Origin: an uncultured Spirochaetaceae bacterium
Lineage (GTDB): Bacteria; Spirochaetota; Spirochaetia; Sphaerochaetales; Sphaerochaetaceae
Length of the DNA: 64,000 bases
Direction of reading: 5' to 3'
NCBI GenBank assembly: GCA_944389505.1
Contig: CALXMP010000005.1
Location: 62,001-126,000 of the forward strand
The notes under the pieces were generated by a model. The model had not been told where the DNA came from. It worked only from the letters and a program-made list of their open reading frames with translations, and made no database searches. This document shows, in pieces, positions 28,237-29,795 of the stretch (position 1 is the stretch's first letter; each line of letters opens with the position of its first letter). The translations under genes and the position numbers were made by a program.

Positions 28237-28269
28237 TTGACAAATGCCAACCAGGGGGGGGGGTAAATT
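28237..28269 (+). promoter_or_regulatory. Lipoprotein promoter with a G10 tract in the spacer
   Basis: TTGACA (28237-28242), then a 21-base spacer containing ten consecutive G (28254-28263), then TAAATT (28264-28269). A spacer of 17-18 would need 6-7 G. Homopolymeric G tracts between -35 and -10 are a known phase-variation device (for example in Neisseria), and poly-G tracts upstream of tpr genes act in Treponema. Here the same role is inferred from layout. Confidence 0.6.
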
Positions 28270-28306
28270 GTAGTCATCATTAATTTAGGAATAGGAGAGG
28301 AATACG

Positions 28307-29480
28307 ATGAAAAAATCTATTTCTGCAATTCTCGTTGCAGCTCTGATTTTTTGCATTCACAGCTTGTGAGCAGCCTGCTATGGAGATCCCTACTGAGAAT
28401 GGTAAGGAAATTGCAAATATCTCTGTAACATCTGCGAATGTTTACGCAGGCACCGAAGAGACATCAGTTCCTGCAGTCGTAACAGTAACTTACAGAGATG
28501 GGTCAACAACACCAAATGTAGCTGTTGAGCTTACACTTGCTTCGGAGACTGTTGCTGGATCAAATTTTGGCACGGTGAGTTATTCTGGACTTTCTGGAAA
28601 CAATGCAAAATGGACAGTGGAGTATCAGGGCATTGCTGTATCGAATATTACTCTTGATGTTGCAGAGGAAGATCTTAAGGTAAGTTATACTGACCTGGCT
28701 TCTCTCTGCGCAATCACGGGCGATGTAACAATTACCTATGCTGATGGTCATATAGAAACAGTAAAAGATGCAACGCTTAGTTGGAATTCAACTGAGCAGA
28801 GTAAGATTACAGCGGTTCAGGCTTCCGTACCAGCTAAATATACTTCAGGAAAAACTGATCTTGTAGCTTCTGCTGATCTTGCAATAACAGGAGGTCCCAC
28901 TGCTCCTGCTATTACTGGTCTCGTTGTCGAGTATCAGTATCCAGATGCATTTGATGCAACAGGCGCAAAACATTTCTATGGTGAAAAATATACATACAAT
29001 GTGTATGCAGCTACAGGCTCAACAGGATCATATGTAAAGACTGGAGAACCTCTTGTTCTTAATAGGGATTATTATATCGAAGATGGAAAGACATTCTCTG
29101 GGGTATTTGGTGCTGGAGAGACTTTAACTCTTGTTTATGCAAAGAATCCTACAATAAAGCTTCCTGTTACGATTGCTGCTGGTGATGACTATATTAGTAA
29201 TGTTGCTGGCTCTGGAATAATCAAGGGAACTGCTACTATTTCAAAGAATACAAAGCTTAGTGCTGATGATATTCAGATAGTTGCAACATATGCAAAACCA
29301 GCAACCGGTACGGATCCGGTTTATGTTCCTTCGGCAAATCTTACAGTGCTTGATGCTAATCCTGATGCAGGTAAAACAGGTTCTGTAAGAGTTCTTGTTA
29401 AGTATGGTAAAGGCGAGTCACTGGCAACAACAGTAACACTTTCCGTTACAGTTCCTGCCGAACAGGGACAGCAGGGCTGA
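28307..29480 (+). CDS. Beta-rich surface lipoprotein, out of frame at a T6 tract in the signal peptide
   Basis: ATG 28307 follows AGGAGAGG, but the frame stops after 20 codons (TGA 28367). Deleting one T from the run at 28347-28352 gives a continuous protein: a lipoprotein signal ending LIFAFTAC-EQPA, joined to the long open frame (366 codons from ATG 28380). The mature part is built of repeated beta segments resembling bacterial Ig-like folds (VTVTYRDGST, VTITYADGHIET, IQIVATYAKPATG). It is more AT-rich than neighbouring genes. It may be a phase-variable gene caught in the off state, a recent pseudogene, or a sequencing slip. Function unknown. Confidence 0.7.
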
Positions 29481-29555: not shown

Positions 29556-29753
29556 ATGGAAGAAAATAGAGAGTCCCTCCGGAAACATTGGATTCCAACA
29601 GAGAAGCGTAAGGAATGCCTTGAGCTCTTTGAGCAGGGATTTGGGTACAAGAAGACTGCATCAATTGCGGGGTTGAATACATATACTGTAAGAGACTATA
29701 AGCGTAAATATGCTGCAGGAGATACTTCTTGGGCTTATAGAGTGATTGAATGA
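29556..29753 (+). CDS. Small helix-turn-helix protein, transposase OrfA-like
   Basis: 65 aa with AGGAGGA before the ATG. It is essentially one HTH domain: RKECLELFEQGFGYKKTASIAGLNTYTVRDYKRKY. This resembles the N-terminal HTH of IS transposase OrfA proteins and small stand-alone HTH proteins of firmicutes and spirochaetes. No OrfB or terminal repeats are seen nearby. It sits between two hairpins directly after the lipoprotein gene, so it could regulate that gene or be an IS relic. Confidence 0.65.
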   Translation: MEENRESLRKHWIPTEKRKECLELFEQGFGYKKTASIAGLNTYTVRDYKRKYAAGDTSWAYRVIE

Positions 29754-29766
29754 TCACCGGCTATAT

Positions 29767-29795
29767 GGGTCATGTCCTATTATAGGATATGGCCC
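29767..29795 (+). terminator. Terminator after the small HTH gene
   Basis: 13-bp stem with two G-T pairs (GGGTCATGTCCTA with TAGGATATGGCCC), 3-base loop, then TTAAATTTT. Confidence 0.8.

Follow-up and report, generated by a model that had tools for sequence, protein, structure and literature searches.

A probably recent frameshift in one member of a poly-G-promoter lipoprotein family of an uncultured Spirochaetaceae bacterium

Our analysis indicates that the gene studied here is probably a recently frameshifted member of a family of lipoprotein genes with poly-G promoters, and not a gene that carries a second hypermutable switch in its coding sequence. The gene lies in a window, the whole stretch of DNA that was analysed, of 64,000 nt from an uncultured Spirochaetaceae bacterium (assembly GCA_944389505.1, contig CALXMP010000005.1, positions 62,001-126,000, forward strand). 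The features on which the argument draws are given below in window coordinates.

28237-28242, plus strand: -35 element TTGACA (sequence; alignment to 97 promoter sites built in the same way)
28254-28263, plus strand: G10 tract, the downstream part of a 21-nt -35/-10 spacer and a probable transcriptional phase-variation tract (sequence, genus-wide pattern)
28264-28269, plus strand: -10-like element TAAATT; the family consensus is TAGNNT directly after the G tract (site alignment)
28293-28300, plus strand: ribosome-binding site AGGAGAGG (sequence; conserved in the orthologue L033 and in L019)
28307-28369, plus strand: truncated leader reading frame of 20 codons and TGA, its signal peptide broken before the lipobox (sequence)
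28347-28352, plus strand: T6 run where the frame shifts; relatives have two bases more (sequence, comparison with relatives)
28353-29480, plus strand: out-of-frame lipoprotein remainder of 375 codons, comprising lipobox AFTAC and mature domain (sequence)
28380-29480, plus strand: reading frame of 366 codons from an internal ATG, starting after the lipobox cysteine and 11 bases past the leader stop (sequence)
29556-29753, plus strand: small helix-turn-helix (HTH) gene of 65 amino acids, the second gene of the cassette (HTH_23, E 0.002, below the curated cut-off)
29767-29795, plus strand: intrinsic-terminator-like hairpin of 13 pairs, closing the two-gene unit (sequence)

Translation from the ATG at 28307, which follows a good ribosome-binding site, yields MKKSISAILVAALIFCIHSL and ends at the TGA at 28367-28369 (codon 21). 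The T6 run and this stop had been placed exactly by an earlier note made from the sequence. The second frame, read from 28353, begins AFTAC-EQPA, has its lipobox cysteine codon at 28365-28367 and stays open for 375 codons. The lipobox frame given in the earlier note was right, but its 366 codons count only from the ATG at 28380. Upstream, a TGA at 28344-28346 closes the lipobox frame, whose open stretch begins FFAFTAC, and the sequence holds no start codon in that frame ahead of the lipobox cysteine. An alternative start is ruled out by these two facts, and only a change of frame can yield the lipoprotein. A signal peptide and lipobox in a single frame, as a lipoprotein needs, are found in L033 and the siblings and not in the window copy. 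Re-initiation at the internal ATG could give a cytosolic product; this codon has no evident ribosome-binding site. A 7-pair hairpin (CTGCAATTCTCGTTGCAG, 28323-28352) located just ahead of the T6 has a weak terminator-like look within the leader, which is probably due to chance.

Comparison with relatives clarified how the frame was lost. The nearest orthologue, L033, comes from another uncultured Spirochaetaceae metagenome-assembled genome; its mature part is 71% identical to that of the window gene, and both genes adjoin the same iron-containing alcohol dehydrogenase gene. Its leader is identical to the window's up to the frameshift site, where it has two extra bases and remains in frame. L035, L036 and L002, a sibling from the window's own genome, agree with L033 at this site. 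Measured against these relatives, the window copy has lost a net two bases, which is not what a slip from T5 to T6 would give, and we rejected the T6 as a slippage product. From these relatives we infer the polarity of the change, a deletion in the window copy. A pattern scan of 48 congeneric genomes found 54 in-frame leaders of the form ATG-CTN-TTT-GC (ATGCTNTTTGC...lipobox) in 18 of them, and the T6 leader of the window occurs in no other genome of the 48. All homologues lack the frameshift, an outcome that the earlier note, joining it with reads of one T5 length, had itself listed as telling against its proposal of a second switch.

According to that proposal, the T6 slips to T5 and back and so switches translation on and off in addition to the promoter tract. 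Dropping one T would indeed open the leader, and the downstream frame, intact and maintained by purifying selection, is what one would expect if the gene were switched off for a time only. Also, a leader with T5 (ATG-ATT-TTT-GCA) is found in frame in another genome (L174 in G006). The window sequence would, however, be derivable from either leader type, CTN or L174, by a single loss of two bases, and a T5-to-T6 slip would additionally need the loss of one codon. The T5 leader of L174 is not evidence of T5/T6 switching. In a coding contingency tract, the alleles are set apart by whole repeat units; here the net difference is two bases. Among 48 genomes the T6 state occurs a single time, and many sibling leaders carry in-frame T5 or T6 runs without a frameshift. 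Using a first-order Markov model of the window to obtain expected run counts, we found 8 T runs of at least six where 9.3 were expected. The T6 is therefore at chance frequency, and not longer than chance as a coding tract should be. A/T contingency tracts are usually longer than six, and the tracts that we take as real in this organism are of G (G7-12, those of this genome G9-12, and one of them, a G10, in coding sequence). Contingency tracts are, moreover, hypermutable, typically 100-10,000 fold (PMC11868660). Taken together, these observations make a switch at the T6 very improbable; of the two-level locus that had been suggested, the promoter tract stands, being genus-wide with variable lengths, and the coding tract is not supported, given the two-base difference and its chance frequency. 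Even less probable is rescue of the frame by programmed +1 ribosomal frameshifting, or by transcriptional slippage on the U run, to give a low level of lipoprotein. In the zero frame the sequence is ...AUU UUU UGC, and a +1 step might let a Phe tRNA pair with UUU again. Yet no other member of the family has kept this arrangement, which would be new in one copy, and there is no conserved stimulator. Six U are short for transcriptional slippage, which counts against this variant.

The state of the mature domain bears on the age of the lesion. Relative to L033, its dN is 0.217 and its dS 1.019 (dN/dS 0.21), with 70, 66 and 174 nucleotide differences at codon positions 1, 2 and 3. When L035 serves as the outgroup, the window branch receives 25 amino-acid changes and the L033 branch 27. 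Purifying selection acts on the mature frame, and the window branch shows no acceleration. Selection until very recently means that the lesion is young, is a minority allele or is a consensus error. An old pseudogene decaying in place might account for the gene having the sole broken leader among 109 promoter sites, but this is hardly credible and was rejected, given the dN/dS, the lack of excess changes on the window branch and the intact frame. The scan of 28353-29480 revealed no further stop or frameshift in the remaining 375 codons. An error of consensus or assembly, with the gene intact in the organism, deserves more weight, although we consider it unlikely. It would agree with the intact state of all relatives and with selection that shows no relaxation. 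The leader is also nearly identical to that of the same-genome sibling L019, a situation in which assemblies get confused, and leaders of this kind lie at or close to the start of two other contigs of the genome, C6 and C17. On the other hand, a T6 is not a usual source of short-read consensus errors, a misjoin with a sibling would not create a sequence found in no sibling, and the window copy lies deep within a 207-kb contig.

The poly-G tract upstream is of a different kind. The window has a single G run of at least nine, the G10 at 28254-28263, where 0.13 were expected under the same model, and no other G run of at least six where 11.5 were expected. The G10 exceeds chance, and G runs of at least six are otherwise avoided. 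A pattern search for TTGACA, 7-11 bases, G7-12 (most commonly 9) and TAGNNT identified this layout in 36 of the 48 genomes of the genus, and a reversed-pattern control gave 0 or 1 match per genome. Across the 139 genomes of the order, a stricter pattern was limited to 3 of 22 genera. The optimal spacer of sigma-70 promoters is 17 nt; the commonest in the family is 19 nt and that in the window is 21 nt. We compared 26 pairs of sites whose downstream flanks are at least 85% identical, and 21 of these pairs are unequal in their number of G; the pairs are not independent and compare genomes or paralogues, not one clone. Gap counts in the coding part of the paired sites were set aside as alignment-end artefacts. 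The sequence pattern strongly supports the view that the promoter tract belongs to the spacer of a promoter family that extends through the genus and in which tract length varies. Two near-identical contig-end copies of one genome, L067 and L117 (G010:C37 and C49), have G12 and G9. In the orthologue, the promoter tract is interrupted (GGTGGGGG, L033:5900-5920), which would lock its spacer at 19 nt.

Nearly all of the 97 sites that were read in detail lead to a lipobox signal peptide about 40 bases downstream. Only two signal peptides of the other type, one cytosolic oxidoreductase-like gene and the broken leader of the window depart from this rule. The oxidoreductase-like gene is L105 (G007:C10, about 23600), which has the poly-G promoter but takes the place of a lipoprotein gene. 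A second count, of 109 sites, found a broken leader only in the window gene; the six sites for which the rule of this count gave no start, and L090, were compared with the detailed 97-site reading where listed, with L185 outside this check. Short reading frames behind the promoters L067, L073 and L117 were rejected as broken leaders because the contigs end there, and L090 was rejected because its start is merely further downstream. Elsewhere in the genome, another lipoprotein gene (L015, L173) has a G10 within its signal-peptide codons (MRKIYKSHTTGGGYKSLTVLVSLLIAVLAITSC..., G000:C6:13736-13745), in frame. This is a probable coding contingency tract in the same genome, and it is made of G, not T.

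The promoter and leader belong to a larger cassette. In the window's own genome, an HTH gene of 62-65 amino acids follows most lipoprotein copies of the AFTAC type; there are 11 copies of it, mostly behind poly-G lipoprotein genes, and it was found in 30 of the 48 congeneric genomes. Between copies, the leaders and HTH genes are much more similar than the mature domains. Such similar ends with diverging mature domains suggest exchange at the cassette ends. The mature domain itself fell below the curated cut-offs of Pfam for both Rib (18.4 of 27 bits) and Big_4 (14.9 of 22.1 bits). A structure model of the lipoprotein had a mean pLDDT of 37.6, too low to judge an Ig-like fold or to search with.

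Based on these observations, we propose the following account of the recently frameshifted gene. What the sequence shows is a sigma-70-like promoter with a G tract at the end of its spacer, followed by a leader that is conserved, the signal peptide of a lipoprotein, a mature domain that diverges and a small HTH gene. The promoter elements presumably function as such, with tracts that would vary within one population; slippage of the G tract would alter spacer length and thereby turn transcription, and presumably expression, up or down. In the window copy, a net deletion of two bases in the signal-peptide codons would have shifted the frame and incidentally left the T6. On this view the gene would have lost its function recently and through a non-programmed event, or the assembler would have picked up a minority allele. 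Reversion would be expected only at ordinary rates, or if the copy recombined with a similar leader, of which there are many.

We can further speculate that the genus maintains a repertoire of promoter-leader-lipoprotein-HTH cassettes, each with its own poly-G switch and with conserved ends that flank diverging surface domains and could recombine, and that the window copy is parked out of frame and could be reactivated by conversion from a sibling leader. As a whole this is a tentative reading. The existence of a cassette repertoire is supported by the sequences, while recombination is suggested by leaders that are far more alike than the mature domains. The T6 itself is ordinary, the mark of one damaged copy, and it is the poly-G background that matters. 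Single genomes of the genus carry as many as about a dozen G-tract promoters, or more, nearly all of them before secreted lipoproteins, and each cell could display a different random set of surface proteins.

The literature searched, with partial coverage, contained no description of a poly-G lipoprotein system in gut spirochaetes; related systems are known from other bacteria. In Neisseria meningitidis, promoter strength at loci of the porA/opc type depends on a homopolymeric G/C tract within the -35/-10 spacer; these loci differ from the present family in being single loci with unrelated genes in an unrelated organism. For SabA of Helicobacter pylori (PMC2715451), both tracts are true slippage tracts, whereas the coding run here is a chance-level T6 with a two-base difference. 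The tprE, tprG and tprJ genes of T. pallidum also carry poly-G in the promoter region of a surface-antigen family, and eight or fewer G are permissive for transcription (PMC7864442). The Tpr proteins are putative porins, not lipoproteins, and the likeness drawn here is one of promoter region. A close parallel in layout, as judged from sequence on our side, is tp0126 of T. pallidum, in which a G tract between -35 and -10 sets the spacer length and transcription is best at 17 nt (PMC7864442). Both cases involve a spirochaete, a promoter-spacer G tract and a surface-protein gene. As in tp0126, the tract found here lies between a recognisable -35 and -10, and tracts of its family vary in length between similar flanks; by this precedent, the number of G would set expression in the present family as well. 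In contrast, tp0126 is a single locus that encodes an OmpW homologue, while here dozens of lipoprotein loci share one promoter and leader, often with an HTH gene. In a gut lineage, the switching of promoters by poly-G spacers, described for a few genes of the spirochaete that causes syphilis, would be the principal means of surface variation.
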